From: Centipeda noxia ATCC 43541
GTDB taxonomy: Bacteria; Bacillota; Negativicutes; Selenomonadales; Selenomonadaceae
Direction of reading: 5' to 3'
Assembly (NCBI RefSeq): GCF_000160555.1
Contig: NZ_GG749280.1
Location: forward strand, 1 to 64,000
DNA length: 64,000 bases
Both the position numbers and the translations under genes were made by a program. The notes beneath the pieces are model-generated. The model was given only the letters and a program-made list of their open reading frames with translations. It was not told where the DNA came from and did not search any database. Position 1 is the stretch's first letter; each line of letters starts with the position of its first letter. Positions 4,706 to 60,913 of this stretch are shown one piece after another.

Positions 4706-7114
4706 CTATCCGAGTACGCGGCGCGCGATCTCGACAATGCTCCGCGCATCGCCGGCATAGTGATCCGCGCCAATTTCACGCGCATAATCCTCTGTCAGCA
4801 CAGCACCGCCGACCACGGTTTCACATTCATGCCCTGCCTCATGCAGAGCATCGATGGTGCGCTTCATTGCTGTAACAGTCGTCGTCATGAGTGCGGAGAG
4901 CCCGATCAGTCCGACCTGCTTTTCGATGGCGACCTCCACCACGCGCGTAACGGGCACGTCGCGCCCGAGGTCGATAATCTGGTAGCCGTAATTCTCCAGG
5001 ACAACCTTGACAATGTTCTTGCCAATGTCATGGATATCCCCTTCCACTGTGGCAAGGATGATCTTCCCTTTCGAAACGCCCTGCCCCTCCTCGGCAAGGC
5101 GGGCTTTGATGAGTTCAAGACCTGCCGTCGCGGCATTTGCCGCATTGATGAGCTGCGGGAGGAAGATAATTTCCTTCTCATAGCGGTCGCCCACAATATC
5201 GAGCGCAGGGATGACCTTCTCCTGGATGATCTCCATCGGCGCTTTCTCCGTGAGAAGCTTCCGCGTGATGCGCTCAGCATCATCACTCAGCCCTCGGATG
5301 ATCGCGTCCATAAGCGGGTCAACGTCGTCAGCGCCGTCTGCTGCAGCGGTCTGTACGGCATCCGGCGACTCGCTGCCCGTAATGCCAAGTTCCTTGCGTC
5401 GCCGTATCTCCGCCTGCTCCGGTGCAAAGCGTGCAATATAGGCGGCGCAGTCCACATCCTCACCAGAGACCGCGCGGAAGGAGATGACAGCATCCATGAT
5501 CTCCTTTGTGTTCGGATTGACAATGGGGAAATCAAGGCCGACATGCATCGCCTGTATGAGAAAGTTTTCCGTCATATGCACGCGTGCCGGGAGGCCGAAT
5601 GAGATATTGCTGACGCCGAGCGCACAATGCAGTCCGAGGCGCTCGTGCACCTCCCGCACGGCACGCAGGGTCTCCATTGCCTGATTCTGCTGGGCTGAAA
5701 CGGTGAGTGTCAGACAGTCGATGATGATATCCTCACGTTCGATGCCGTAGCGCTCTGCCTCTGCGACAATGCGCTCGGCGACCGCGATGCGGTCTGCGGC
5801 AGTCTCCGGCAGCCCCTTCTCGTCCATCGCAAGGCCGAGCACAGCCGCCCCATAGTGTTTGGCAAGCGGGAAGATAGCATCCATACGCTCGCGTTCACCG
5901 CTGACCGAGTTGATGATGACACGCCCGTTTGTCACGCGCAGCGCCGCTGCAATGACCTTCGGATTTGCCGAGTCGATTTGCAGAGGCAGATCAACCACGC
6001 TCTGTACGGCCTTGACGACATACGGAATAATCTTCTCCTCATCAACGCCCTGCGCACCGACATTGATGTCGAGCACCTGCGCGCCCGCTTCCTGCTGGGA
6101 TATGGCGAGCTTCTTGATGTACCCGTAGTCCTCCTCAAGAAGAGCCTGCTGGAGACGCTTCTTGCCCGTCGGATTGATGCGTTCGCCGATGACATTCAGT
6201 TTTCCGTATTCAGCAACGCGCCCCGGCGAGGCGATGCCCTTGCGCTTCCTGCGCTCAGGCCGCTCCGCAGCGCCGCTTGCAACAGAAGCAGCAAGTGCCC
6301 GAATGAACTCCGGATTTGTGCCGCAGCAGCCGCCCATGATAACGGCGCCGCGCCGCGCGAACTCCGCCATCTCCCGGCCAAACTCCTCTGCCGTCATCTC
6401 ATAGGCGCCCGTACGTGGATCGGGCAGACCCGCATTGGGCTTCACAATGACAGGCAGATCCGTCCACTCCATTAGTTCATCGACAATCGGCAGAAGTTCT
6501 ACGGGACCAAGCGAGCAGTTGACGCCGATTGCCGCAACACCGAGCGCGTCCAGTGTAACCGCGACAGACGGTACAGCTGCACCAAGAAAGGTGCGTCCAT
6601 TCTGTTCGAAGGTCATCGTCACCCAAATGGGCAGCTTCGTATGCTCCTTTGCTGCGAGTACGGCCGCCTTTGCTTCATAGAGATCGGTCAGCGTCTCAAA
6701 GATGATGAGATCGGCACCCGCCTCCTCTCCCGCAACCGCCATTTCGCGGAAAAGTTCATAGGCCGCTTCAAAGGAGAGCGTGCCAAGCGGCTCGACCAGC
6801 TCTCCGATGGGACCGACATCGAGCGCAACACGCACCCCTTCCACACCGGAGTGCTCTGCCGCACGGCGCGCAATCTGCACATTTGCCCCGATGACTTCGG
6901 CGACGGTCTTGCCTGTTCCTGCGAGTTTATGCCCGTTCGCTCCGAACGTATTGCTGTAAATAACGCGGCTGCCCGCGGCGATGTAGTTCCGATGAATTTC
7001 CTCGACCACTTCGGGATGCTCTATGCCGAAGAGCTCGGGGCGCTCGCCCGGCGCAAGCCCCCGCGCCTGCAGCTCAGTCCCCATCCCACCATCCAATATA
7101 ATAATGTCTTTCAT
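4706..7114 (-). CDS. metH: cobalamin-dependent methionine synthase lacking the activation domain
   Basis: MetH transfers a methyl group from methyl-THF through methylcobalamin to homocysteine. In 802 residues I see the homocysteine barrel (DGGMGTELQ at the N-terminus, zinc ligands in GVNCSLGP and GGCCGTNPE), the pterin-binding domain (NVIGERINPTG onward), a helical cap, and the B12-binding domain with DIHDIGKN, H695 being the cobalt ligand. The protein stops right after this domain. The roughly 330-residue S-adenosylmethionine reactivation domain of E. coli MetH is missing and is supplied by the gene 34 bases upstream. Such split synthases are known in several anaerobes. Confidence 0.95.
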   Translation of the reverse strand: MKDIIILDGGMGTELQARGLAPGERPELFGIEHPEVVEEIHRNYIAAGSRVIYSNTFGANGHKLAGTGKTVAEVIGANVQIARRAAEHSGVEGVRVALDVGPIGELVEPLGTLSFEAAYELFREMAVAGEEAGADLIIFETLTDLYEAKAAVLAAKEHTKLPIWVTMTFEQNGRTFLGAAVPSVAVTLDALGVAAIGVNCSLGPVELLPIVDELMEWTDLPVIVKPNAGLPDPRTGAYEMTAEEFGREMAEFARRGAVIMGGCCGTNPEFIRALAASVASGAAERPERRKRKGIASPGRVAEYGKLNVIGERINPTGKKRLQQALLEEDYGYIKKLAISQQEAGAQVLDINVGAQGVDEEKIIPYVVKAVQSVVDLPLQIDSANPKVIAAALRVTNGRVIINSVSGERERMDAIFPLAKHYGAAVLGLAMDEKGLPETAADRIAVAERIVAEAERYGIEREDIIIDCLTLTVSAQQNQAMETLRAVREVHERLGLHCALGVSNISFGLPARVHMTENFLIQAMHVGLDFPIVNPNTKEIMDAVISFRAVSGEDVDCAAYIARFAPEQAEIRRRKELGITGSESPDAVQTAAADGADDVDPLMDAIIRGLSDDAERITRKLLTEKAPMEIIQEKVIPALDIVGDRYEKEIIFLPQLINAANAATAGLELIKARLAEEGQGVSKGKIILATVEGDIHDIGKNIVKVVLENYGYQIIDLGRDVPVTRVVEVAIEKQVGLIGLSALMTTTVTAMKRTIDALHEAGHECETVVGGAVLTEDYAREIGADHYAGDARSIVEIARRVLG

Positions 7115-7148
7115 TCCGACTCCTTCACTCTCACGTACGGAATTTTCT

Positions 7149-7829
7149 TTACGTTTTTGCGCCCTCTCTGCACCTGCGCCCAGCCTTGCGGAAGGGGCAG
7201 CTGCGGAACATGAGACAGCTCTCGCAGTCCGGAGGACGATGCGGCTGTGGTGTCCGGGCGATCCCCATGATCGCCGTCACCGATTTGCGCGGCACCATGA
7301 TCGTCGTCGGCGTCAGCGAGACCCCAACGCGCCGCGTCATATCGAGCAGAGCAAAAAATTTCGGCTGCTCCGAGATCGGCAGATCGCCGTACCCCGGACT
7401 GAAGCGATCGGTCAGATAACGCCCCTCTGCCTCCACAGCAGCGCGCATATCGCTCTCGAAATTATTGCAGATATTCTCGATCGCCGTACTCGCACACGCG
7501 TCCATGATGACAGAGTCCGCTGCATTCATGACCTCATAGCGCATCATCAGGCGCTCTACCCCGGGACCGAGCGTCGCGCCGAAGAGAACAGCCTCCTCGC
7601 ACGGCGCAAGCATACGCGGGATATCGCGGCCCTCAAATGTGACACCGAGCACGGCGCCGTTCTCCAACGGCACTTGCCGATAGGTCAGACGCGGGGTTGC
7701 CGCTGCCAGCACCTCATCCGTACAGCGGCGAATCTGCGCCGCGATTTCCTCTGTAAGCTCCTGCCCGCGAAAGCCGAGATACTTCAAAATTTCGTTCATA
7801 TTCAGCGTTGTAAAACGCGGTTCAAACAT
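7149..7829 (-). CDS. methionine synthase reactivation (AdoMet-binding) protein
   Basis: This 226-residue protein resembles the C-terminal activation domain of MetH, which uses S-adenosylmethionine and an electron donor to rescue the cob(II)alamin form. Recognisable parts are LGFRGQELTEEI, RYLTDRFSPGYGDLPISEQ (the AdoMet-binding RPAPGYP-like loop) and LTPTTIMVPRKSVTAIMGI. The C-terminus carries CESCLMFRSCPFRKAGRRC, a cysteine cluster that could bind a metal or cluster. The ATG at 7829 has TAGGAG just ahead; the frame extends upstream only through the promoter. It is the first gene of the operon that continues into metH. Confidence 0.88.
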   Translation of the reverse strand: MFEPRFTTLNMNEILKYLGFRGQELTEEIAAQIRRCTDEVLAAATPRLTYRQVPLENGAVLGVTFEGRDIPRMLAPCEEAVLFGATLGPGVERLMMRYEVMNAADSVIMDACASTAIENICNNFESDMRAAVEAEGRYLTDRFSPGYGDLPISEQPKFFALLDMTRRVGVSLTPTTIMVPRKSVTAIMGIARTPQPHRPPDCESCLMFRSCPFRKAGRRCREGAKT

Positions 7830-7867
7830 ACTCTCTCCTATTTTTCCTTTCCCCTCGCGGGAACTTG

Positions 7868-7876
7868 TGATATAAT
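7868..7876 (+). promoter_or_regulatory. extended -10 promoter of trpD
   Basis: TGaTATAAT at 7868-7876 is a full extended -10 on the plus strand, with no good -35. The start would be near 7883, about 45 bases ahead of the trpD ATG. It lies just downstream of, and divergent from, the methionine operon promoter. Confidence 0.5.
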
Positions 7877-7887
7877 ACAGCACTGTC

Positions 7888-7916
7888 ATTTTATATGCTA
7901 AGGAAAAAATTATCAA
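7888..7916 (-). promoter_or_regulatory. promoter of the methionine synthase operon
   Basis: On the minus strand TTGATA (7911-7916) and TAAAAT (7888-7893) are 17 bases apart. The leader to the ATG at 7829 is only about 50 bases and contains no recognisable S-box, T-box or cobalamin element. Confidence 0.55.
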
Positions 7917-7928
7917 GGGGGAAACGGA

Positions 7929-8948
7929 ATGATAAAAGAAGCGATTCAAAAAGTCGTGGATAAGCAGGATCTCTCCTATGATGAGGCGTACGCCGTCATG
8001 AACGAAATCATGTCGGGCGAAACCTCTGCGGTTGAAAATGCCGCCTACCTTGCAGCACTCTCAACAAAGAGCAGCGGCATGGAGACGATTGACGAGATCT
8101 CCGGCTCTGCAGCGGCAATGCGCGCGCATGCCGAGACAGTCGAGCATGACATGGACGTGATTGATATCGTCGGTACAGGCGGCGATCACTCAGGCAGCAT
8201 CAACGTTTCGACAACAGCCTCGTTCCTCGCGGCAGCAGCCGGACTGAAAGTCTGCAAGCACGGCAACCGTGCGGCGTCGTCGAAAAGCGGTACCGCGGAC
8301 TGCCTGGAGGCGCTCGGCATAAACATCGACCAACCGCCCGAGAAAGTGCGCGAAGAGCTTCGCTCCATCGGTCTCGCTTTCCTCTTTGCCCAGCGCTACC
8401 ACCAATCGATGAAACATGTCGGAGCGATTCGCCGCGAGCTCGGCATTCGCACGGTATTTAACATTCTCGGCCCCCTCACGAATCCGTCACGCCCTGCCTG
8501 CATGCTGCTCGGCGTCTACGGCGAGCACCTCCTGCGCCCGCTTGCAAAAGTATTGCCCGAACTCGGTGTGAAACGCGCGCTCATCGTCCACGGAATGGAC
8601 GGCATGGATGAAATTTCGATCGGTGCTCCAACAATGGTGCGCGAGATCGCAGGAGGCAATGAGACTTCCTATGAGATACGCCCGGAGGATTTCGGCATTG
8701 CGCCCGCATCGAAAGATATGATTCGCGGCGGTTCTCCCGAAGAAAATGCTGCCGTCACGCGCGGCATCCTCGCCGGAGAGATCCGTGACGCACGCGCAGA
8801 CATCTGTCTCATGAACGCAGGCGCTGCAATCTATATCGGCGGCCGCGCATCCTCTATTGCCGACGGCATTGCTGCAGCACGACAAACGATCGCCGACGGA
8901 AGTGCCCTAAAAAAGATGAAGAGTTTCATCAAAATCTCGCACGAATGA
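7929..8948 (+). CDS. trpD: anthranilate phosphoribosyltransferase
   Basis: TrpD joins anthranilate and PRPP in tryptophan synthesis. The 339-residue length is typical. Diagnostic motifs are VGTGGDHSGSINVST (PRPP loop), KHGNRAASSKSGTADCLEALG and TVFNILGPLTNP, which separate it from thymidine phosphorylases. No other trp gene is near, which is unusual because trpD normally sits in a trp operon. It is followed 15 bases later by a transporter gene, suggesting co-transcription. Because TrpD homologues can act on other aromatic acids, the exact acceptor is an inference. Confidence 0.9.
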   Translation: MIKEAIQKVVDKQDLSYDEAYAVMNEIMSGETSAVENAAYLAALSTKSSGMETIDEISGSAAAMRAHAETVEHDMDVIDIVGTGGDHSGSINVSTTASFLAAAAGLKVCKHGNRAASSKSGTADCLEALGINIDQPPEKVREELRSIGLAFLFAQRYHQSMKHVGAIRRELGIRTVFNILGPLTNPSRPACMLLGVYGEHLLRPLAKVLPELGVKRALIVHGMDGMDEISIGAPTMVREIAGGNETSYEIRPEDFGIAPASKDMIRGGSPEENAAVTRGILAGEIRDARADICLMNAGAAIYIGGRASSIADGIAAARQTIADGSALKKMKSFIKISHE

Positions 8949-8963
8949 AAGGAGTTTGCATAT

Positions 8964-9899
8964 ATGCAGACACTCGAACAGCTCAGTAATTTTGTTTCGC
9001 GTTATATGGCATTATTCGTCATTCTCATCGCGGGCATCTCCCTTTTTCAGCCGTGGACATTCATTTGGACAGTGCCGTGGATCACGATCCTGCTCGGCGT
9101 CGTCATGTTCGGCATGGGTATGACGCTCCGCTTTGCGGATTTTAAGCTTGTCCTCCAGCGCCCGCGTGACGTATTCATCGGTACGGTCGCACAGTTCGGC
9201 ATCATGCCGCTCCTCGCATGGGCGCTGGCACATGCCTTCGCCCTCCCGCCGGAACTTGCGGCAGGCGTTATCCTCGTCGGCACCTGTCCCGGCGGTACGT
9301 CGTCCAATGTCATGACCTACCTCGCGCGCGGCGATGTCGCACTCTCCGTCTCTATGACGATGGCGTCCACCATTCTCGCGCCGATTATGACGCCTCTTCT
9401 CACGCTCTGGCTGGCCGGTCAGTGGATTGACATCCCGGCAGAGAAAATGATGATCTCCATCGCGCAGGTCGTCATCGCTCCGATCATCCTCGGCATTCTC
9501 ATCAACCATTTCTTTGAACGGCCCGTGCAAAAGGCAATCAAAATCCTCCCGCTCATCTCGGTCATTGCTATTGTGCTCATCGTCGGCGGCGTTGTCTCAG
9601 CGAATGCGGAACGCATCATCGAGACGGGCGCCCTCATCATGCTCGTCGTCATATGCCACAACCTCCTCGGCTACGCACTCGGCTTTCTCGTCGCCAAAGC
9701 GCTCGGTATGAATATGGCGAAGGTCAAAGCCGTCTCCATCGAGGTTGGCATGCAGAACTCGGGGCTCGCAACTTCGCTTGCACTCCTCCACTTCGGTGCG
9801 GCAGCTGCCATCCCCGGCGCGCTCTTCAGCGTCTGGCACAACATCTCCGGCTCCCTTGCCGCCAATTATCTTTCGAGCGGAATGAAAAAATCCTCGTAA
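8964..9899 (+). CDS. bile acid:sodium symporter (BASS) family transporter
   Basis: The 311-residue protein is almost entirely hydrophobic, with nine to ten predicted membrane helices, and carries the family motif GTCPGGTSSNVMTYLARGD plus the C-terminal VGMQNSGLA segment. These regions form the crossing helices and sodium sites in structurally known members. Substrates in bacteria include organic acids such as pantoate as well as bile acids; nothing here fixes the substrate. It follows trpD by 15 bases with a GGAG ribosome site and ends in a terminator, so it forms a two-gene unit with trpD. Confidence 0.88.
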   Translation: MQTLEQLSNFVSRYMALFVILIAGISLFQPWTFIWTVPWITILLGVVMFGMGMTLRFADFKLVLQRPRDVFIGTVAQFGIMPLLAWALAHAFALPPELAAGVILVGTCPGGTSSNVMTYLARGDVALSVSMTMASTILAPIMTPLLTLWLAGQWIDIPAEKMMISIAQVVIAPIILGILINHFFERPVQKAIKILPLISVIAIVLIVGGVVSANAERIIETGALIMLVVICHNLLGYALGFLVAKALGMNMAKVKAVSIEVGMQNSGLATSLALLHFGAAAAIPGALFSVWHNISGSLAANYLSSGMKKSS

Positions 9900-9914
9900 G
9901 AATTTCACAGTGAA

Positions 9915-9944
9915 AAGGGGCTGACCAATAAAGGTCAGCCCCTT
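9915..9944. terminator. terminator between the transporter and frdB
   Basis: Perfect 12-base arms at 9915-9926 and 9933-9944 with a 6-base loop. The T run is better on the minus strand, where it would end the fumarate reductase operon; it can also stop plus-strand transcription. Confidence 0.75.
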
Positions 9945-9977
9945 CTTACTATATCCAATTTCTGCACCGGAATTCAA

Positions 9978-10730
9978 TTAATGGTTGAACATGTTGCGCA
10001 GCGCCTGCTTGTTGACCTCGCGGTTCAGCTGAGCAAGATGCTGCGTCAGCTTAATGCTTTTCGGACAGACGCGCTCGCAGTTCTGACTGTTGCCGCAGCT
10101 CGTGATGCCGCCCTTTTCCATCAGTGCATTGAGACGTTTCGGTGCATCGAACTTTCCGAGCGGATGCAGATTGAACAGCAGCGTCTGTGCCGTCGGCGCG
10201 GGCCCGATGAAATCCGACTGAGGTCCGACATTCGGACACGCCTCGAGGCAGCAGCCGCAGGTCATGCAGTGCGACAGCTCATAGCAAGTCTCAGCCGTAT
10301 AGGGATTCTGAATCGGCGCATCCTTAACGTCCCATGTGCCGTCCACCTCAATCCAGCCGTGAATGCGCTTGAGGCTCTCAAACATAACTGATCGGTCAAT
10401 GAGAAGATCGCGGATGACCGGGAATGTACGCGCCGGCTGTATGCGAATCGGCTGTGCAAGGTGATCTACCAGCGCGCAGCATGCCTGCTGCGCACGGCCA
10501 TTGATGACCATCATGCATGCACCGCAGACCTTCTCGAGGCAGTTGCACTCCCAGACCGGAGGCGGAACGCGCTTGCCGTCGACGGTCACAGGGTTCTTCT
10601 GAATCTCCATGAGTGCTGCAACGACGTTGAGACCGGTACGATAGTCGACCTCGAATTCCTGCGTATACGGGCTTTCATTCGGTCCGTCCTGGCGCTCAAT
10701 GATAAAACGAACTTTTTTCTGTTCTGCCAT
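9978..10730 (-). CDS. frdB: fumarate reductase/succinate dehydrogenase iron-sulfur subunit
   Basis: This 250-residue subunit carries electrons between the cytochrome b subunit and the flavoprotein. It has the 2Fe-2S cysteines in WECNCLEKVCGAC with a later CC pair, the 4Fe-4S motif CMTCGCCLEACP and the 3Fe-4S region CGNSQNCERVCP. It is the last gene of the fum-frd cluster, 15 bases after frdA. In a fermentative Negativicute the complex most likely works as a menaquinol-dependent fumarate reductase producing succinate for the propionate pathway, although sequence alone does not decide direction. Confidence 0.93.
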   Translation of the reverse strand: MAEQKKVRFIIERQDGPNESPYTQEFEVDYRTGLNVVAALMEIQKNPVTVDGKRVPPPVWECNCLEKVCGACMMVINGRAQQACCALVDHLAQPIRIQPARTFPVIRDLLIDRSVMFESLKRIHGWIEVDGTWDVKDAPIQNPYTAETCYELSHCMTCGCCLEACPNVGPQSDFIGPAPTAQTLLFNLHPLGKFDAPKRLNALMEKGGITSCGNSQNCERVCPKSIKLTQHLAQLNREVNKQALRNMFNH

Positions 10731-10745
10731 GACTGCTATCCTCCC

Positions 10746-12557
10746 CTACTCCTTCTTGGCAACGGCATAGTTGCGCGCACGTGCCTTGATGAGCGAATGC
10801 TCAAAATCCATGTAGCTGATAATCGGTTCCTCTGTCTTCGGATCGTAGTCTACGATGGAGGTCTTCATAAAGTGCTCGTCATCACGGCCATAGAAGACGA
10901 GCTCGCCGTCGGCATCGGTCATGCGTTCGCCGCTCTCGTCAAGCAGGATCTTGGCATGTGCGCCGCGGCTCTCATCGCGGCAGCGCGCCGCCTTCGTAAC
11001 CGCCATCGCATAGAGAATCATATTGCGCAGCTGACGTACGAACATCGCTTCCTGGTTCGCCCATGTCCCATGATCCGTCACGCCGATGTCATCCCAACGC
11101 TTCAGGATGTCCTTGAGCTTTTCAAGGCAGATATCAAGGCCCTTATTGTCACGCTCGATGGAGACGTAATCATACATGATCTCGCCCATCTCCTGATGGA
11201 GCTGATGCGCATTGACCGAGCCTGTCATATTGCGGATTCTGTCGAACTCCTCAACGGCCTCTTTGCGCGCGCTCTCCATCTCTTCCTCTGTAAGGGCAGT
11301 CCCGAGCTCGCCGCTGCGGGCCCAGCGCAATGCCTCAGGCCCTGCGATAAAGCCCGAGTATGCCGCCGAGAGAAGTGAATTCGCACCAAGACGGTTCGCA
11401 CCATGGTACTGATGGTCGCACTCACCGGCCGCCATAAGCCCCGGGAGGTTTGTATGGTGATTGCGGTCGACCCAGATACCGCCCATCGAATAGTGCACGG
11501 ATGGGAAGATCTCCATCGGTACCTTGCGCGGGTCCTGACCGACAAACTCCGAATACATCTCGAGGATGCCGCCGAGCTTGCGCTCGAGGTAGTCCGCGGG
11601 AATATGGGAGAGGTCGAGATAAACACGGCGGTCATTGTCAATGCCGAGGCCCATATGGACACAGACCTTGAAGATTGCGCGGGAGGCAACATCGCGGGGA
11701 ACAAGATTGCCGTATGCCGGGTACATCTCCTCGAGAAAATACCACGGCTTTCCGTCCTTATACGTCCAGATGCGCCCGCCCTCGCCGCGGCATGCTTCAG
11801 ACATGAGACGGTTCTTATCCGAGCCCGGAATCGCTGTCGGGTGAATCTGAATGAATTCCGGGTTGCCAATGTGTGCGCCCTGCTGATATGCGGAGGAAAC
11901 CGCCGAGCCGTTGCAGATTGTGGACGCCGTACAGCGTCCGAACACCTGTCCGGGTCCGCCTGTCGCCAGTATGACAACATCTGCCGGGAACGATTTAATC
12001 TCGTTTGAATTCATGTTTTGCGCAACAATGCCGCGGACAATGCCGTCCTTATTCTTAATCGCGCGGATGTATTCCCAGAACTCATATTTTGTAACCTTGC
12101 CTTTGACTTCCCAGCGGCGCACCTGCTCATCGAGTGCGTAGAGAAGCTGCTGACCGGTCGTAGAGCCCGCGAATACCGTACGCTTATTCTTCTGTCCGCC
12201 GAAGTTGCGCAGATCAAGCACACCCTCTGCCGTACGCGTAAACGGAACCCCCATCCGGTCAAACATCTTGACGAGCTTCGGCGCAGCCTCAACCATGCCT
12301 TTGACCGCAAGCTGATCCGCGAGGAAGTCACCGCCGTAGACCGTATCATCGAAGTGCTCATAGACGCTGTCGTGCTCGCCCTTCGTATCCATGCAGGCAT
12401 TCATACCGCCCTGTGCGCAGAGCGAGTGCGAACGCTTCACCGGGCAATAGGAAAAGAGGTCAACCGTACCGCCGCCCTCGCAGACCCTCATCGCAGCGAG
12501 CAGCCCTGCCAGACCGCCGCCGACGATGATAACCTTATTTTCTGGTACTTTAGCCAT
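10746..12557 (-). CDS. frdA: fumarate reductase/succinate dehydrogenase flavoprotein subunit
   Basis: The 603-residue catalytic subunit begins with the FAD dinucleotide motif VIIVGGGLAGLLAA and has SHSLCAQGG, whose histidine attaches FAD covalently. The active-site regions EFIQIHPTAIPGSD, RGEGG and HYSMGGIWVD are present. It matches the type B (di-heme, single cytochrome subunit) family seen in Wolinella and Bacillus rather than the E. coli FrdABCD type. Gene order C-A-B and tight spacing show one transcript with the cytochrome and iron-sulfur subunits. Confidence 0.94.
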   Translation of the reverse strand: MAKVPENKVIIVGGGLAGLLAAMRVCEGGGTVDLFSYCPVKRSHSLCAQGGMNACMDTKGEHDSVYEHFDDTVYGGDFLADQLAVKGMVEAAPKLVKMFDRMGVPFTRTAEGVLDLRNFGGQKNKRTVFAGSTTGQQLLYALDEQVRRWEVKGKVTKYEFWEYIRAIKNKDGIVRGIVAQNMNSNEIKSFPADVVILATGGPGQVFGRCTASTICNGSAVSSAYQQGAHIGNPEFIQIHPTAIPGSDKNRLMSEACRGEGGRIWTYKDGKPWYFLEEMYPAYGNLVPRDVASRAIFKVCVHMGLGIDNDRRVYLDLSHIPADYLERKLGGILEMYSEFVGQDPRKVPMEIFPSVHYSMGGIWVDRNHHTNLPGLMAAGECDHQYHGANRLGANSLLSAAYSGFIAGPEALRWARSGELGTALTEEEMESARKEAVEEFDRIRNMTGSVNAHQLHQEMGEIMYDYVSIERDNKGLDICLEKLKDILKRWDDIGVTDHGTWANQEAMFVRQLRNMILYAMAVTKAARCRDESRGAHAKILLDESGERMTDADGELVFYGRDDEHFMKTSIVDYDPKTEEPIISYMDFEHSLIKARARNYAVAKKE

Positions 12558-12581
12558 TCTTACTCTCCTTTGCTGCAGTTC

Positions 12582-13214
12582 TCACATGAAATAGCTGCCC
12601 ATGAAGGCGAGCGTAACAAGACTCATCAGCGTACAGAGGCTCATCGCAAGCGCATTGATCACAGACTGCGCGCGCGGCCCCTTTGCAATGCCCCATGTCA
12701 TGCAGAATGTCGAAATCCCATTGCAGAAATGGAAGATCGCTGCAATCATGCCGAGCGTATAGAGCACTGTGTGTAAAATGGCATAATCCCCCGTCACAAA
12801 ATAGGTATAGAGGAGGTCATAGTTAATATGTGTCCCCATGATGCCCTTTTCCCACACGCGCATATAGCCTACATGCCAGATGAGGAACGGAATGAGCAGC
12901 CATGCCGTATAACGCTGAACGGCAAACTGCCAGTTGCGGACGTAGCCATAATTGCCGGGATTGTTCTTCGCCTGCGCAGCGATATAGATGCCATAAATCG
13001 CGTGAAAGAGAATCGGCAGCGCGATGGCAAACACCTCGAGCCCGTAGAAAAGCGGACGCGGGATAAGATCCATCATGGCCAGCGCATCGTTGAAGGCCTT
13101 CGCTCCGCCTAGCACGGTCGAGTTTGTAAAGACGTGCTCAAAGAGGAAAACGCCGATGACGATAAGTCCGACCAAGGAATGCAGGCGCCGCATGTAAAAG
13201 GTTGTGTGGAACAT
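12582..13214 (-). CDS. frdC: fumarate reductase cytochrome b subunit
   Basis: The 210-residue protein has five predicted membrane helices and the histidines expected for two hemes b: RRLHSLVG, FEHVF, LFHAIYG, IWHVGY and IFHFCNG. It anchors the complex and exchanges electrons with menaquinone. I place the start at the ATG at 13214, 6 bases after AGGAGG (13221-13226); the frame continues upstream but there overlaps a hairpin and has no membrane character. It sits between fumB and frdA; the 110-base gap upstream holds a perfect 11-base hairpin. Confidence 0.9.
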   Translation of the reverse strand: MFHTTFYMRRLHSLVGLIVIGVFLFEHVFTNSTVLGGAKAFNDALAMMDLIPRPLFYGLEVFAIALPILFHAIYGIYIAAQAKNNPGNYGYVRNWQFAVQRYTAWLLIPFLIWHVGYMRVWEKGIMGTHINYDLLYTYFVTGDYAILHTVLYTLGMIAAIFHFCNGISTFCMTWGIAKGPRAQSVINALAMSLCTLMSLVTLAFMGSYFM

Positions 13215-13249
13215 TTCATACCTCCTAAAATATGTAGACCTCTGGAAGT

Positions 13250-13276
13250 GCAGCTCCGGAACATCTCCGGAGCTGC
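13250..13276. repeat. perfect inverted repeat between fumB and frdC
   Basis: Arms GCAGCTCCGGA (13250-13260) and TCCGGAGCTGC (13266-13276) with a 5-base loop. There is no T run on the minus strand, so it is not a standard terminator. It could stabilise or separate the frd message, or form a processing site. Confidence 0.6.
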
Positions 13277-13324
13277 TCCCCGAATGATTCGTCATGCGCC
13301 AAACCATCCGCATGCGTAGTCAAA

Positions 13325-13882
13325 TCAAAGTTTGCGATAGGGTTTCTGTCCCATTTCATAGAAGTTATTGCCCTCGGAATCAATCACAACGATACAGGGG
13401 AAATCTTCGACCGTTAGCTTTGCGACGGCTTCGGGGCCAAGTTCCGGGTACCCTACGACTTCATACTTCTTCACAGACTTTGCAATCAGGGCCGCCGCAC
13501 CGCCGACCGCAGCAAAATAGGTGGCGCCATGCTTCTTCATCGACTCGACAACGGCTGCCGAACGCGAGCCCTTGCCGACCATGCCTTTGATGCCCTGTTC
13601 CAACATCGTCGGAGTATACGCATCCATGCGGCCGGATGTCGTTGGGCCTGCCGAACCGATCGGGTCGCCCGGCTTTGCCGGCGTCGGTCCAAGGTAGTAG
13701 ACAATTTGATCGTGCCAGTCAACCGGCAGAGGTTCTCCTTTTGCAAGGGCCTCGGTCATCGCCTTATGCGCCGCATCGCGCGCACTGATGATCGTCCCCG
13801 TAATCAGGACACTGTCACCGGCCTTGAGCTTGCGAGACATTTCTTCTGTAAACGGAGTCGTAATACGGATACTGTCCGCCAT
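13325..13882 (-). CDS. fumB: fumarate hydratase class I, beta subunit
   Basis: This 185-residue protein matches the C-terminal half of class I fumarases (GDSVLITGTIISARDAAHK, PAKPGDPIGSAGPTTSGRMD, KGMVGKGSR, FAAVGGAAAL, VIDSEGNNFYE). With the alpha subunit it forms the oxygen-sensitive 4Fe-4S enzyme interconverting malate and fumarate. It lies 32 bases after the alpha gene and upstream of frdC, so malate to fumarate to succinate is encoded in one cluster. A tartrate dehydratase beta subunit is the nearest alternative; the fumarate reductase context favours fumarase. Confidence 0.92.
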   Translation of the reverse strand: MADSIRITTPFTEEMSRKLKAGDSVLITGTIISARDAAHKAMTEALAKGEPLPVDWHDQIVYYLGPTPAKPGDPIGSAGPTTSGRMDAYTPTMLEQGIKGMVGKGSRSAAVVESMKKHGATYFAAVGGAAALIAKSVKKYEVVGYPELGPEAVAKLTVEDFPCIVVIDSEGNNFYEMGQKPYRKL

Positions 13883-13914
13883 TGAGCATTCCTCCCTAAC
13901 GATAATACACAGTG

Positions 13915-14757
13915 TCAGAGCACTCGATGCGCATGCCTAAGGGCATGGCAGCAGATGGTCACCGCAACCGGAAGCCCTGCGATGTGCGTTGCCCCCCATT
14001 CAATATTCACGGCAAGCGCGGTGGTCGTCCCTCCAAGCTGGGGACCAATGCCCGTCTTGTTGATCATCTCGAGGAGCTCATTCTCGAGTTGTGCATACTC
14101 CGGCATTGCATGCCGCTGATCAATCGGCCGCGTAAGCGCCTTCTTCGAAAGGAGTGCCGCCTGATCCATCGTTCCGCCGATACCGACACCGACCACCTCG
14201 GGAGGACACGGATTCGGACCCGCATGCTGAATGATCTCCATGACAGCATTCTTTACACCCTCAACACCATCTGCAGGAACCAGCATCTTCACGCCGGACT
14301 TGTTTTCCGAACCGAAGCCTTTGGGCGCGATCGTAATGTTGAGCTGATCGCCGGCAATGATCTTTGTGTAGATCACACCCGGCGTATTGTTCTGTGTATT
14401 CTTTCGGTTAAAAAGGGGCTCCGCAACAACCGATTTGCGCAGGTACCCTTCCGTATATCCCTTTGCAATTCCCTCGTTGATCGCATCCTCCAAGAGGCCA
14501 CCGGTGATATGGAGATCCTGCCCGACCTCCACAAACACAATGGTCATCCCTGTGTCCTGGCAATATGGACGATCCTCCTCACGCGCGATCTCAGCGTTGC
14601 GAATGATCTGATCCAAGACAATCCTGCCGACGGGCGACTCCTCGGTCTCTCTCCCCTTTTTTAACCCCTTATAGACATCATCCGGGAGATAGTACGCCGC
14701 TTCTTTGCACATCTCGGCGACGTTCTCTGTGATTTCTTTTGCGCTTAGCTCTCGCAA
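13915..14757 (-). CDS. fumA: fumarate hydratase class I, alpha subunit
   Basis: The 280-residue alpha subunit has the three conserved iron-sulfur cysteine regions: RPYCQDTG (C66), GPNPCPPEVVGVGIGGT and the C-terminal CCHALRHAHR. The start is a TTG at 14757, chosen because AGGAGG at 14765-14770 is 7 bases away and no ATG is available nearby. It is the first gene of the fum-frd cluster, behind a strong promoter. Confidence in the function is high because of the paired beta subunit. Confidence 0.93.
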   Translation of the reverse strand: MRELSAKEITENVAEMCKEAAYYLPDDVYKGLKKGRETEESPVGRIVLDQIIRNAEIAREEDRPYCQDTGMTIVFVEVGQDLHITGGLLEDAINEGIAKGYTEGYLRKSVVAEPLFNRKNTQNNTPGVIYTKIIAGDQLNITIAPKGFGSENKSGVKMLVPADGVEGVKNAVMEIIQHAGPNPCPPEVVGVGIGGTMDQAALLSKKALTRPIDQRHAMPEYAQLENELLEMINKTGIGPQLGGTTTALAVNIEWGATHIAGLPVAVTICCHALRHAHRVL

Positions 14758-47268: not shown

Positions 47269-48255
47269 ATGTACGCATTCAAACATTTACTCACTGCCCT
47301 GCTATTATGCACGCTATGCATCATCCCATACACCGCCTCTTCCGCCGATACGAATGCAGACTACCGGGGTTATGTCTGGCGCATCGATACAACGGCGGGC
47401 AATGCGGCGGAGCTGCCGCACAATTTCCGCACGGCGGCATCGCCGTTCCGAACATGGACAGACGCGGCGAAGTTCGGCGTCGACCCGAACTACACTCCCT
47501 CTCGCGAGGGGCTAGACGCCCTGCCGCTCTCGGGAAGCGCGGAGTTCTCCGTCCCTGCCTTTCACGCGCTGCTGAAAGACCTGCACACGCGCGCAAAAGC
47601 CTCGATCTGTATCGTCGATCTGCGGCAGGAGTCGCACGGCTTCATGAATGGGAACGCCGTCAGCTGGTACGGCAAGCACGACTGGGGCAATATCGGCCGG
47701 ACGAAGCACGAGGCACTGCGTGACGAGAACATGCGCATTCGCAGTGCACAGGGCAAGGATGTCGTGCTCGCGCACCTCGACAAGAAAAAGCAGCAAAAAA
47801 ATCAGCAGACCGTCCGCGTCACGGCGGCGATGACGGAGCGTGAGCTGGTCGAGCATGCGGGCGTGCGCTACGTCCGTCTCGCCGTCACCGACCACAAATG
47901 GGCAGACCCACAGACCATCGACAAATTTGTCGATCTCGTGAAAAAAATGCCTGCGGACACATGGATGCACTTTCACTGTCAGGCAGGCAAGGGACGCACG
48001 ACCAGCTTTATGGCGATGTACGATATGATGAAAAATCCCTCCGTCCCGCTGAAGGACATTCTCTATCGTCAGTACCTGCTCGGCGGAGCATACCTCGCCT
48101 ACGACCCGACCACGCAGCATACACCGACGGGATGGGAGGATGCAGACTACCATCACAAGTCAGAAATGATCGCAAAGTTCTACGACTACGTTCAGCAGAA
48201 TCACGAGGGCAACTATGCCGTACCGTGGAGTACGTGGCTGAAGAAGAATCCATAA
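47269..48255 (+). CDS. exported protein-tyrosine-phosphatase-like inositol polyphosphatase (phytase)
   Basis: This 328-residue protein resembles PhyA of Selenomonas ruminantium, which dephosphorylates phytate with a PTP fold. It begins with a signal peptide (about residues 1-26), has the general-acid loop AVTDHKWADP (D208) and the P-loop HCQAGKGRT, with C237 the nucleophile and R243 the phosphate-binding arginine. In the characterised enzyme the loop is HCEAGVGRT, so E and V are replaced by Q and K here, which may change substrate preference. A long basic helix (DKKKQQKNQQ) lies before the catalytic core. It is a single-gene unit with its own promoter and terminator. Confidence 0.9.
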   Translation: MYAFKHLLTALLLCTLCIIPYTASSADTNADYRGYVWRIDTTAGNAAELPHNFRTAASPFRTWTDAAKFGVDPNYTPSREGLDALPLSGSAEFSVPAFHALLKDLHTRAKASICIVDLRQESHGFMNGNAVSWYGKHDWGNIGRTKHEALRDENMRIRSAQGKDVVLAHLDKKKQQKNQQTVRVTAAMTERELVEHAGVRYVRLAVTDHKWADPQTIDKFVDLVKKMPADTWMHFHCQAGKGRTTSFMAMYDMMKNPSVPLKDILYRQYLLGGAYLAYDPTTQHTPTGWEDADYHHKSEMIAKFYDYVQQNHEGNYAVPWSTWLKKNP

Positions 48256-52953: not shown

Positions 52954-52982
52954 TTGTCTCTTTCCATCTCCTATGCTATAAT
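52954..52982 (+). promoter_or_regulatory. promoter of the P-type-ATPase-like gene
   Basis: TTGTCT (52954-52959), 17-base spacer ending in TGc, TATAAT (52977-52982). The start would be near 52989, about 33 bases ahead of the TTG start codon. Confidence 0.75.
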
Positions 52983-53021
52983 GCCCCTGTAACAAAGTCG
53001 TATGCTAGGAGTTGAGCATCC

Positions 53022-54380
53022 TTGAAGAATTTTGCCTCAACATTTGTCCATTTTATTGCAAGTGTCGCCTTCGCCGTGAGCGCTGCGGGGTATTGGTATT
53101 TCACAGACAATATCTCGATCGAAACGGCGTCCGAGATTTTCCTTGGCGTATTCCTCGCCGCATCACCGCTCCCCTTCATCGTCTCACGATGGCTGATCGC
53201 TATGCGCATCAAACGCCGCCTGCACAGCAGCGCCATCGTATGCAGCCGTATGGGCGCGCTGACCGAGCTCCTTCATGTTGATACGATCGCATTCAACCGC
53301 AACGGAACGCTCACAGAAGGAAATATATTCATCTCAGGACTGATTCCCGAAGGGATGACGCAGGGCTCTCTGCTGGCGCTCGCTGCCAGTGCCGAACGCG
53401 AAGCCGTACATCCGTATGCGCAGGCGCTCTATGATACCGCCGTTCAGCGCGGTCTCCATCTCCAGCGGCACTCGGCGGCACGCGAGGCCGAAAGTCTCGG
53501 CGTTGAGGCGCTCATTGCGCGCACGCCCGTCCGCGTTGGAAAGAAGGAATGGCTACAGGAGGAGAACATCGAGATCAGTGCCGCTCTCCTCACGCGCGCC
53601 GATCAGCTCGCGACGAGCGGACAGTCGCCGCTCTTTGTCAGCTCGAGCAAGTATGCGCGCGGCATCATTGCCGTACGTGACGATGTGCGTGCAGAGGTAA
53701 AACGCACGCTGCAGCAGCTGCGTGAACGCGGTCTCTCTCTCGTTCTCCTCACGGGCGAGACAAGGCGTCTCGCAAATGCGACGGGCAAGGAACTCCGCAT
53801 CAGTGAGATACGTTCTGATCTCACAGGCACGGATAAGGCACGCGAAATCCGGCTGCTGCAGTCACGCGGCGCCGTCGTCGCGATGGTCGGCGATCCAATG
53901 TCGGATCAGGCGGCGCTGCGCGCAGCAGATATCAGCATCGGCTGTCCCTCCTCTCTGGAGGAGCCGCCTGCTTCTCCGGAAGAAGATGCTCCGCAGGATC
54001 CGCTGCACGAAGAACTTCTGCGTGGTCCGAATGAAAATATTTCCGCTGAAGAACGCGAGCTGCTGCTGCCTGCCGAGAACGCCGCTTATTTCGAGTCACA
54101 TCCGCTGCACAAACAAAGCTGTTCAGCGGACTTTACGCCGGATATCATGCTCGATGCGGCGGGACTTCCGAGTCTCGTCGCTCTCTGGGATACGTGCAAC
54201 GCTGCACGTTCACGCGCAAAGCAAAATCGCTGGCTGAGCATCTTCTTCCTCCTGCTCTTTGCACCTGCCTCTGCGGGCCTTCTCTCCTTCCTCGGCGCTC
54301 CGCCTCTCTCCTATCCGTTCGTCGCGGGCGCACTGCTTTTGCTGATGCTCCTGCTCATTATGAATGCACTTCGTGAATGA
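53022..54380 (+). CDS. degenerate P1B-type ATPase-like membrane protein
   Basis: The 452-residue protein aligns with the C-terminal half of heavy-metal P-type ATPases: two helices, a P/N catalytic unit and two final helices. Key residues differ. The phosphorylated DKTGTLT is NRNGTLT (N92 replaces the aspartate); the metal-binding CPC of the membrane helix is SPL (48-50); TGDN is TGET (244-247); GDGxND is GDPMSD (290-295), keeping both aspartates. The N-domain HP (130-131) and K272 remain. The A domain and first four helices are missing, and an acidic insertion of about 60 residues follows the P domain. The frame is intact, with a TTG start after AGGAG, so this looks like a retained pseudoenzyme, not a decaying gene. 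Role unknown. Confidence 0.85.
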   Translation: MKNFASTFVHFIASVAFAVSAAGYWYFTDNISIETASEIFLGVFLAASPLPFIVSRWLIAMRIKRRLHSSAIVCSRMGALTELLHVDTIAFNRNGTLTEGNIFISGLIPEGMTQGSLLALAASAEREAVHPYAQALYDTAVQRGLHLQRHSAAREAESLGVEALIARTPVRVGKKEWLQEENIEISAALLTRADQLATSGQSPLFVSSSKYARGIIAVRDDVRAEVKRTLQQLRERGLSLVLLTGETRRLANATGKELRISEIRSDLTGTDKAREIRLLQSRGAVVAMVGDPMSDQAALRAADISIGCPSSLEEPPASPEEDAPQDPLHEELLRGPNENISAEERELLLPAENAAYFESHPLHKQSCSADFTPDIMLDAAGLPSLVALWDTCNAARSRAKQNRWLSIFFLLLFAPASAGLLSFLGAPPLSYPFVAGALLLLMLLLIMNALRE

Positions 54381-54426: not shown

Positions 54427-54455
54427 TTGTATTTCATTTTAACCTATGATATAAT
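54427..54455 (+). promoter_or_regulatory. promoter of the cyd operon
   Basis: TTGTAT (54427-54432), 17-base spacer ending in TGa, TATAAT (54450-54455). The leader of about 85 bases can form a CTTTTGTCC/GGGGCAAAAG hairpin near 54472-54497 ahead of the cydA ribosome site. Confidence 0.75.
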
Positions 54456-58584: not shown

Positions 58585-60200
58585 TGACAGGAACACTTGC
58601 TCGCCTTCTTGCAATTGCTGCCCCGGCAAAGGCACTCCCTGCCCTCCTTGCGGGAGTGCTTGCGGCAGCATTCGGCATTGCGCTGATCGCTGCAGCAGCA
58701 TGGATCATCGCGAGTGCGGCCCTGCAGCCGCCGCTCTCAGCACTTGCCCTTGCGATTACAATGGTGCGTGCCTGCGGCATTGGACGTGCCGTCTTCCGCT
58801 ACCTCGACCGCCTTCTTTCCCATCGTCTTGCATTCTCCTGCTATGAGAAGCTGCAGCTGGCAACATACCGCCGCTCTGCCGCGGCGATTCCCCTGCGCGA
58901 GGGTAATGTCCGCGAGGGCGAGTTCCTGCACGATCTCCTAACCGGCTGCGAGGCTCTGCGCGATTTCTATCTGCGCGCCGTACCGCAGCCGTTGATCGCA
59001 GGTGCTTTGATGCTTGCGGCCTGCGCCGCGCTTCTCCCCCTTGCGCCCTTTGGCGCTGCTCTTATCCTTGTGCTCTATCTTCTCCATCTTTCCCTACCCC
59101 GTCTCCTCCAAGAAAAAGATCTGCGCATAGAGAGTGCAGCCTATCGGGGCAGCCTGCTCGATCAATTGGACGGACGTGCGGAACTCAGAGCCGCCGGCAG
59201 CATTTCCCATGCGATCCACTTTCTCGATCGGGCAGCGGCGGACTTTCAGCGGGAGCAGGCCGCCAGACGCCAACGGTGTGAAAGGCTCTTCACGTTGCTC
59301 GATATTCTGCGCGTAGCGGTCTGGATCGTGCTGATTGTTCTGCTGACACCTCTTGTCAGGGACGGTGCATTGACCGGCGTACAGTATGCCGTCTGGGTGC
59401 TCACCCTCGAAGCGCTGCTCAGCGAGTTCCGTCCGCTCCCTGCTGCAAGCATCAGTGCAGCGGAAGCAATGCAGGCGGCATCAAACATACTGCCGAAGGA
59501 GTTCAAGGCTGCCCCAGAAACAGCTTCGTCGCCTGCTGCAAAAGTACCGGAGGAAGGCGCACCTCTGATCGAAGCAAAGCAGGTTTCCTTCGGCTATCAT
59601 ACCTCCGTTCCCATTCTGGACAAACTCTCGTTCACGGTCCGCCGTGGTCAGCACACGGCGATCATTGGCGAGAGCGGTGCAGGCAAGACGACGCTCGCCG
59701 GTCTGCTTCTGCGTCTCTGGGAGCCGGACAGCGGTGAGATTCGCTTCGGCGGCATCCCGCATACGAGTCTCACCCCTGTGGAAACGCGTGCCCTCTTCGG
59801 GGCAGCCCTTCAGGGAAGCTATCTCTTCAGCACGTCGATCCGGGACAACTTCCTGCGTCTGCATGACGAGATAAGCGAGCAACAAATCTGGCAGGCCCTT
59901 GAAACGGCACAACTTGCCGATGTCGTGCGCGCCCTGCCTGCAGGACTCGACGAGCCGCTCGGCAAGAATGCTTCGCGTCTTTCGGGCGGCCAGCGCAGCC
60001 GACTCCTCACAGCGCTTGCCCTCGCCTCCGGCGCACCGATACTGCTCCTCGACGAGCCGACGGCAGGCCTCGATGCTGCGCGCGGTGCACGCCTGATCGA
60101 ACGTGTTCTTGCTGCGCTCGACGCGCGCGGTGCGACACTCATCGTCATCACGCACGATCTCCCCCTTTTAGACCGCATGAAACAGGTGATAGAACTATGA
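58584..60200 (+). CDS. cydC: cysteine/glutathione exporter subunit CydC
   Basis: The 538-residue partner of CydD has six membrane helices, Walker A GESGAGKTT, signature LSGGQRSRL and Walker B ILLLDEPTAGLD with the switch ITHDLPLL. The ATG overlaps the cydD stop by one base, and a full AGGAGGTGA ribosome site sits ahead; a TTG three bases earlier is an alternative. The order cydA-B-D-C is that of most Firmicutes. Confidence 0.92.
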   Translation: MTGTLARLLAIAAPAKALPALLAGVLAAAFGIALIAAAAWIIASAALQPPLSALALAITMVRACGIGRAVFRYLDRLLSHRLAFSCYEKLQLATYRRSAAAIPLREGNVREGEFLHDLLTGCEALRDFYLRAVPQPLIAGALMLAACAALLPLAPFGAALILVLYLLHLSLPRLLQEKDLRIESAAYRGSLLDQLDGRAELRAAGSISHAIHFLDRAAADFQREQAARRQRCERLFTLLDILRVAVWIVLIVLLTPLVRDGALTGVQYAVWVLTLEALLSEFRPLPAASISAAEAMQAASNILPKEFKAAPETASSPAAKVPEEGAPLIEAKQVSFGYHTSVPILDKLSFTVRRGQHTAIIGESGAGKTTLAGLLLRLWEPDSGEIRFGGIPHTSLTPVETRALFGAALQGSYLFSTSIRDNFLRLHDEISEQQIWQALETAQLADVVRALPAGLDEPLGKNASRLSGGQRSRLLTALALASGAPILLLDEPTAGLDAARGARLIERVLAALDARGATLIVITHDLPLLDRMKQVIEL

Positions 60201-60913
60201 CGCAGGAACAATTTCACGAACGAATCCATGTTGTTCTGGACCGCCTCGGCGCAGCAGCACCGCCCCATGAGCTTTTTGCGGGCGGTGCAGAGGACTGGCA
60301 TGCCCGCGCACGGCTCGCACATTTCCTCGCACAGATGCCGGAGCATCGGGCAGAGGCGATGGAGCTCTTTCAGAGCATCATAGACACCGATCCGAACGAG
60401 GAGCTGGCGCAGGATGTAGAGGAAAAAGTCTACGCTCTTCAAGGACTGAGTGCATTGGAAGCCCGTGAAAAGGAAACGCAGGCAGCAGCGCTCGATCATA
60501 TCAATATGGCAATCGAATGCGCGGAGGCCACAGATTTTCTCTACAAATATATTCTGCGCGGCGAACTCTGGGCAGACCGCTGGAACCTCATGCACAAGCT
60601 TGGCATGACCGAGGAAGCAGAGGCAGAGGCGGATGAACGCATTGCCGTCTTTGACGGTCTTGAAGATACGGTTCCGCACAACAGCTATCTCTACTACGGC
60701 TACCGGTTCAAGGCCCATCTCGCTGCGGAACGCGGCGTCGTACTCATCGCAAAGGACTACATGCACATGGCGCTCCACGCCATGGAGATTCCCCCCGCAT
60801 ATGAACAGGGCCTTGCCGATGCCTTTGCGGCATCGCACGAAAATGCCTCTTGGATCCTGTGCGAAATTGACCGCGCCACGCCGAATCCCGAGCAGCTGCA
60901 TTGGGATATATAA
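60197..60913 (+). CDS. helical-repeat (TPR-like) protein, fifth gene of the cyd operon
   Basis: I do not recognise the family. The 238-residue soluble protein is acidic and almost all helical, with TPR-like spacing in ARLAHFLAQMPEHRAEAMELFQSIIDTDP and again in YLYYGYRFKAHLAAERGVVLIAKDYMHMALHAM. No signal peptide or membrane helix is seen. Its ATG overlaps the cydC stop (ATGA), and a strong terminator follows, so it belongs to the cyd transcript. A role in assembly or stability of the oxidase or transporter is a guess from context. Confidence 0.8.
   Translation: MTQEQFHERIHVVLDRLGAAAPPHELFAGGAEDWHARARLAHFLAQMPEHRAEAMELFQSIIDTDPNEELAQDVEEKVYALQGLSALEAREKETQAAALDHINMAIECAEATDFLYKYILRGELWADRWNLMHKLGMTEEAEAEADERIAVFDGLEDTVPHNSYLYYGYRFKAHLAAERGVVLIAKDYMHMALHAMEIPPAYEQGLADAFAASHENASWILCEIDRATPNPEQLHWDI

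Follow-up and report, generated by a model that had tools for sequence, protein, structure and literature searches.

Pseudoenzymes are well known among kinases and among the sites of ABC transporters. The P-type ATPases were reviewed in 2023 (PMC10654040, available in part), and the member that serves as our comparison system is CopA, the Cu(I)-exporting P1B-1 ATPase with structures from Archaeoglobus (PDB 3a1c, 2voy) and Legionella (PDB 4bbj). A related pump, CcoI, is described in the accessible part of PMC8475189 as a CopA2-type P1B-ATPase for the assembly of cbb3 oxidase. The nearest degenerate P-type case that we found in the literature, judging by the available sections of PMC6592433, is the degenerate P4-ATPase domain borne by the Plasmodium guanylate cyclase PfGCbeta, and degenerate nucleotide-binding sites are described for ABC exporters (PMC7756269, also available in part). 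Subscription journals and preprints aside, our search found no paper on the gene described here or on a bacterial family of its kind, and none that joins the term pseudoenzyme with P-type ATPases.

The gene lies in a 64,000-nucleotide stretch of the Centipeda noxia ATCC 43541 genome, here called the window, and is an intact relative of the copper P1B-ATPases that belongs to the P-type ATPase superfamily by descent, as judged by its score and P/N fold. Its features, numbered by position in the window, are as follows.

53022-54380, plus strand: degenerate P1B-ATPase gene, an open frame of 452 codons with a TTG start
52954-52982, plus strand: promoter TTGTCT-17-TATAAT with TG ahead of the -10 hexamer (10/12)
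53007-53011, plus strand: AGGAG, a ribosome-binding-like site (by eye)
53025-53228, plus strand: two remaining N-terminal membrane helices, residues 2-69 (AlphaFold2; hydropathy, close orthologue L032)
53163-53171, plus strand: S48-P49-L50 at the CPC position, metal site lost (SPL in 11/13 and SPI in 2/13 congeners)
53295-53297, plus strand: N92 at the position of the phosphorylated Asp (N in 13/13 congeners)
53337-53636, plus strand: N domain, residues 106-205 (dN/dS 0.032, the lowest among six regions)
53751-53759, plus strand: T244-G245-E246, TGE at the TGD position (sequence)
53889-53906, plus strand: GDPMSD at the GDGxND position, both Asp present (D291 in 12/13 and D295 in 13/13 congeners)
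53949-54134, plus strand: fast-evolving linker, residues 310-371 (dN/dS 0.265; pLDDT below 50 over most of 312-369)
54168-54371, plus strand: two C-terminal membrane helices, residues 383-450 (AlphaFold2)

The gene and its product

The sequence-only reading of the window had described a P-type ATPase relative that has lost its catalytic aspartate and its metal site, and its account of the residues agrees with what we found. The asparagine stands in the context FNRNGTLTEG, SPL replaces CPC and so departs from the CPC, SPC or CPH types of metal motif in M4, TGE replaces TGD, and the protein retains H130-P131 of the N domain, K272 and both aspartates of GDPMSD (D291 and D295), together with E125, G160 and G173. 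In the GxG of the N domain, S158 takes the place of the first Gly, and LLTRADQLA occupies residues 189-197. The uninterrupted frame, open from the TTG at 53022 to 54380, and the near-consensus promoter were likewise as claimed, and cydA is next on the plus strand, which places the gene directly upstream of the cyd operon and in the same direction.

Where a P1B-ATPase has an A domain with TGE and eight helices, this protein starts with two helices ahead of the P domain, and no A domain, MA, MB, M1 or M2 was found in it, in keeping with the claimed loss of the A domain and of the first four helices; we take the helices at residues 2-69 to be M3 and M4 in P1B naming. The motif TGE[SAP] had no match among the close orthologues of the window protein. 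In a profile scan, the similarity to P1B-ATPases spanned the helix before CPC through the end of the P domain. The window protein scored 169.8 bits with TIGR01525, under the cut-off of 346.25, and exceeded the cut-offs of both TIGR01494 (97.9 bits; cut-off, 62.3) and PF00702 (66.7 bits; cut-off, 26.4), and copper pumps were its top sequence matches among solved structures. From N92, the protein is predicted not to hydrolyze ATP through a phospho-enzyme.

Conservation and selection within the genus

An orthologue with 70-81% identity was found in all 13 congeners searched (oral Selenomonas and Centipeda), each of them with Asn at position 92, SPL or SPI in place of CPC, and Ser at position 158. 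The frames run to the end in 12 of the 13; in the remaining genome, G009, the C-terminus runs into an assembly gap of N, and a 587-amino-acid (aa) frame spans the gap. By eye, the extended -10 element TGnTATAAT was present upstream in all 13 congeners, and the start codon was TTG in 12 and GTG in one.

The median dN/dS of the whole gene was 0.124 over 91 pairs (Nei-Gojobori), a figure that, like the other dN/dS values given here, is approximate because the median dS of 1.13 is near 1. By the same measure, we obtained 0.087 for cydA, 0.163 for cydB, 0.146 for cydD, 0.174 for cydC, 0.082 for a TPR-like gene behind cydC and 0.064 for fructose-bisphosphatase, the values for cydC and the TPR-like gene being based on 13 of the 14 genomes of the genus. 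According to the sequence-only reading, close relatives with DKTGT and CPC, or a dN/dS near 1, would have spoken for a strain-level decaying gene; all 13 congeners lack both the Asp and CPC, and the ratio is far from 1. Changes common to all 13 congeners, a dN/dS of 0.12 and a conserved promoter thus indicate that the gene is not a decaying one.

Distribution in the Selenomonadaceae

A profile built from 11 sequences matched all 189 Selenomonadaceae genomes, partly through ordinary pumps. Of 61 loci that were read in 26 genera, 56 (22 genera) were degenerate, all with long open frames, and five (4 genera) carried a canonical copA; 14 additional loci proved degenerate, and L193 proved canonical. 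For counts of residues, the degenerate set was reduced to 44 representatives by leaving out 12 of the 13 congeners, with one sequence kept from the window's genus. The catalytic position was occupied by G in 14 of these, A in eight, S in seven, P in seven, N in three, T in two, and C, D and R in one each; hence, the catalytic Asp is absent from 43 of the 44, and CPC from all of them. The single D belongs to a degenerate pump at 6229-8187 of locus L095, which has no CPC yet bears an Asp at the catalytic position (DRSGT).

The set is graded in protein length. Canonical pumps have 752-771 aa, degenerate ones with most of their helices have 627-757 aa (12 of the 56), two further ones have 538 and 552 aa, and the remainder have 386-493 aa; in several copies of genus g30, hydropathy indicates a single helix left before the head. 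One copy, from a metagenome-assembled genome (L133), is broken by an internal stop. Five complete genomes of genera g8 and g10, with frames of 853-907 aa as their best matches, yielded no degenerate gene, and neither did the one genome of g36. Elsewhere in the class, the profile had matches in 32 genomes at an E value of 1e-72 or better, and all six of the matches listed were frames of 758-842 aa; degenerate copies may nevertheless exist outside the Selenomonadaceae. A homologue from the Coriobacteriia (L153) proved to be a canonical pump. Collectively, the loci read indicate that a copper-pump gene has lost its catalytic and metal residues in most Selenomonadaceae, and usually much of its length too.

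Constraint on the N domain

Selection differs between the regions of the degenerate protein. The N domain had the lowest dN/dS (0.032), followed by the first P segment (0.059), the second P segment (0.101), the first helices (0.116), the last helices (0.184) and the linker (0.265). When the canonical CopA of this genus was compared in 13 genomes, including that of the window, the N domain was the fastest of four regions (0.182), with 0.145 and 0.139 for the P segments and 0.097 for the helices; G010 was left out of this comparison, its match bearing a stop. The same inversion appeared across the family when the 44 degenerate representatives and 10 canonical rows were compared: identity in the N domain was above that in the second P segment for 890 of the 946 degenerate pairs, versus 2 of the 45 canonical pairs. 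This inverted constraint is the strongest sign that selection may now act on the N domain and not on pumping.

The residues of the N-domain pocket, which we assume to map onto the ATP contacts of CopA and ATP7B, are largely kept: E125 in 41, H130 in 38 and G160 in all 44 representatives. All five pocket residues occur together in 29 of the 44, and at least one is missing in the other 15; these 15, and the Ser158 of the window and its 13 congeners, argue that nucleotide binding is not shared by all. The conserved N-domain residues E162, R171, D194 and Q195 are also present in the nearest canonical pumps and would thus have been kept from the ancestor instead of being new gains. The earlier proposal of a maintained nucleotide-binding pseudoenzyme therefore stands in its first part, given the loss of Asp and CPC in 13/13 congeners at a dN/dS of 0.124, whereas binding itself is plausible. 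For the window's genus, with its Ser158, a protein ligand or a weaker nucleotide site would be as likely as ATP or ADP.

An AlphaFold2 model computed from 17 sequences (L133, with its internal stop, was left out of the alignment) reached a mean pLDDT of 80.0 and a pTM of 0.68, with low confidence in the linker at 312-369. It placed helices of the membrane parts at residues 2-29, 33-46, 50-69, 383-418 and 431-450. In a Foldseek search with the model, copper pumps ranked first. By VIA-align, the CopA N domain (2voy_J) could be superposed over its full 118 residues on residues 100-221 at 1.3 Å (Z 21.8), and the CopA P/N unit (3a1c_B) over 269 residues at 2.0 Å (Z 29.8). The N-domain fold is thus intact in the model; a common fold by itself says nothing on function.

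Chromosomal place and origin

The degenerate gene is located upstream of and opposite to an ispE-gntR-glmU-prs block, occasionally with one frame between them, at 29 of the 56 loci (17 of 22 genera); of the five canonical loci, L088 and L098 occupy the same ispE-divergent place. A copZ gene with an intact CxxC follows the canonical copA in L046, L088, L098 and L100. In a tree of 69 rows, one branch (100/99) splits the 56 degenerate from the 13 canonical rows. The pumps nearest to the degenerate rows include the Megamonas-like L088 and L089 and, from g9, L046 and L100; L098 groups with other canonical pumps. The tree and the chromosomal place fit a single origin from a copA-copZ pair, although the degenerate rows may group through long branches, and the Asp of L095 would allow for more than one loss of the catalytic residue. 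In L098 (g31), positions 6742-14063 hold a canonical copA-copZ followed by cydABDC, divergent from ispE, with copper export and cytochrome bd in one block.

A relative of copZ lies behind the degenerate pump in all five genomes of genus g6 (L090, L049, L091, L099 and L204). Its CxxC is intact in one (G067), has lost one cysteine in three and both in one, and the segment AALGDLEGMH is identical in all five. Among the 189 genomes, close relatives of this chaperone (E value below 1e-29) turned up only in g6, g31, g9 and g42; weaker matches were mostly within long CopA frames. Otherwise, the neighbourhood varies between genera, with no partner gene beside the degenerate pump throughout: among 25 neighbour clusters, none was constant, and only the ispE-gntR-glmU-prs block recurs widely (up to 19 genera).

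Relation to cytochrome bd

Cytochrome bd has no copper, and CydDC is part of its biogenesis. The cydA gene is directly downstream in the window and in 13/13 congeners, and it follows the degenerate gene in 25 of the 56 loci (8 of 22 genera) and, after copZ, the canonical copA of L098. By eye, a promoter-like site, TTGTAT-17-TATAAT with TG ahead of the -10 hexamer, is present at 54427-54455 on the plus strand; it was not listed by the promoter scan and is likely cydA's own promoter.

Across the family, cydA is absent from 33 of the 189 genomes. A cytochrome bd assembly factor would be found only together with cydAB; the degenerate gene occurs without cydA in ten genomes of six genera that are at least 91% complete (G017, G019, G023, G048, G049, G057, G144, G151, G153 and G179), the absence from G151, G153 and G179 being inferred from the list of 156 matching genomes. 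The reverse pattern, cydA with no degenerate gene found, occurs in the five complete genomes of g8 and g10. This phyletic mismatch makes the cyd link of the sequence-only reading real in position and doubtful in function, so that a role tied to the cyd operon is not supported; the promoter-like sites of the two units are separate as well.

The TPR-like protein encoded behind cydC (238 aa; 60197-60913, plus strand) overlaps the end of cydC in the window and shows about 60% identity between genera. In G017 and G023, its gene directly follows the degenerate gene, as if cyd had been excised from between them; more generally, it comes next after the degenerate pump at loci without cyd (L045, L051 and L111) or with cyd elsewhere (L112). 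As an obligate partner, it was rejected: it was found in 101 of the 189 genomes and not in genera such as g12, g7 and g2, which have the degenerate gene. Elsewhere in the window, 47269-48255 on the plus strand encodes a secreted protein whose HCQAGKGRT loop may be akin to those of the protein-tyrosine-phosphatase-type phytases known from Selenomonas.

Discussion

At the level of sequence, our comparisons establish the loss of the catalytic and metal sites, purifying selection and the strongest constraint in the N domain. This combination suggests that the pump was turned to another use and not left to decay. Our best explanation, which we hold with slightly better than even confidence, is that the gene encodes a metal-free, membrane-tethered pseudoenzyme derived from an ispE-divergent CopA, with the N domain as its working part and with a ligand and a partner that we infer. 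The ancestor in the Selenomonadaceae would have been a copper-exporting CopA divergent from ispE and followed by copZ. This pump would have lost phosphorylation with its Asp and metal binding with CPC, and most lineages would also have shed the A domain together with helices one to four. What was kept would be a membrane-tethered head with helices before it, the P core and N domain, and two helices behind. The N domain would bind ATP or ADP where the pocket is kept, or hold on to another protein, and its bound or unbound state would be relayed to that partner through the tethered P core. Such a protein would neither pump copper nor, across the family, serve cytochrome bd alone.

The alternatives differ in what the head would do. 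It may be a pure protein scaffold, its N-domain fold kept for docking with no nucleotide bound, which we regard as possible but clearly the less probable course: G158 is replaced in the window and all 13 congeners, H130 is replaced in 6 of the 44 representatives, and E162, R171 and Q195, which would lie outside the ATP contacts, are conserved as well as the pocket, but all five pocket residues persist in 29 of the 44. That the protein regulates or scaffolds the cell's functional CopA, as a decoy for ATP, chaperone docking or oligomerization, seems unlikely to us. Every genome of the congener search has further P1B matches, 13 genomes of the genus encode a canonical CopA of 879-917 aa with DKTGT and CPC, and both the descent from a copA-copZ pair and the altered CopZ that still adjoins in g6 would suit such a role; however, CPC and most CxxC motifs are gone, a stand-alone CopZ of the g6 kind is confined to g6, g31, g9 and g42, and no degenerate counterpart was found beside the canonical CopA of g8 and g10.

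That the gene, placed just upstream of cydABDC, provides a factor for the assembly or regulation of cytochrome bd is a distinctly improbable reading. This reading draws on the adjoining cydA in the window, in the congeners and in 25 degenerate loci, but ten genomes have the gene and no cydA, five complete g8 and g10 genomes have cydA with no degenerate gene found, and in the window cydA has a promoter-like site of its own; the phyletic pattern rules this role out as the family-wide function. A pseudogene on its way out, which we regard as highly improbable, has in its favour the fast linker (0.265) and membrane parts (0.184), the one copy with a stop (L133) and the stepwise domain loss across the family. 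Against it stand long frames at 56/56 loci, a promoter conserved in the genus and dN/dS values of 0.124 overall and 0.032 in the N domain, by which decay is ruled out as far as sequences can tell.

The preferred reading, a metal-free pseudoenzyme working through its N domain, can be extended to the former pair as a whole. We tentatively propose that copA-copZ may have been turned into a metal-free signalling module in this one family, in which CopA would have become a membrane-tethered, nucleotide-responsive N-domain switch and CopZ, of which g6 still has copies that mostly lack an intact CxxC, would be its former or present docking partner; most lineages would later have cut the pump down to the switch. 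If so, bacteria would have their first described family of stand-alone pseudo-P-type ATPases. The family offers a series at one recognisable chromosomal place, with working copA at one end, heads of 400 residues at the other and dead pumps of full length in between, by which one can ask directly how a P-type N domain behaves once it is no longer part of a pumping cycle. There is a warning for annotation as well, as a superfamily model scores the gene as a P-type ATPase and it would pass for a copper pump.

Set beside the known systems, and within what the available parts of the sources on CcoI, PfGCbeta and ABC exporters cover, the degenerate protein resembles each in part. Like CcoI, it is a P1B relative considered together with a terminal oxidase; unlike CcoI, it lacks both the catalytic and the metal site, and the oxidase encoded next to it is cytochrome bd. 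The PfGCbeta domain is of the P4 type, cyclase-fused and eukaryotic, whereas the gene described here stands alone and is kept across a bacterial family. The degenerate sites of ABC exporters offer the likeness of a non-hydrolyzing nucleotide site under selection, for which the N domain is a candidate, but they belong to an unrelated fold and have an active counterpart within the transporter that carries them. With CopA, the degenerate protein shares the fold of the P and N domains, the E and H of the N domain and the order of helices around the head; in contrast to CopA, it has no phosphorylatable Asp, CPC, A domain with its TGE loop, metal-binding domain or first four helices, and its N domain is the slowest-evolving region, whereas that of CopA is the fastest.
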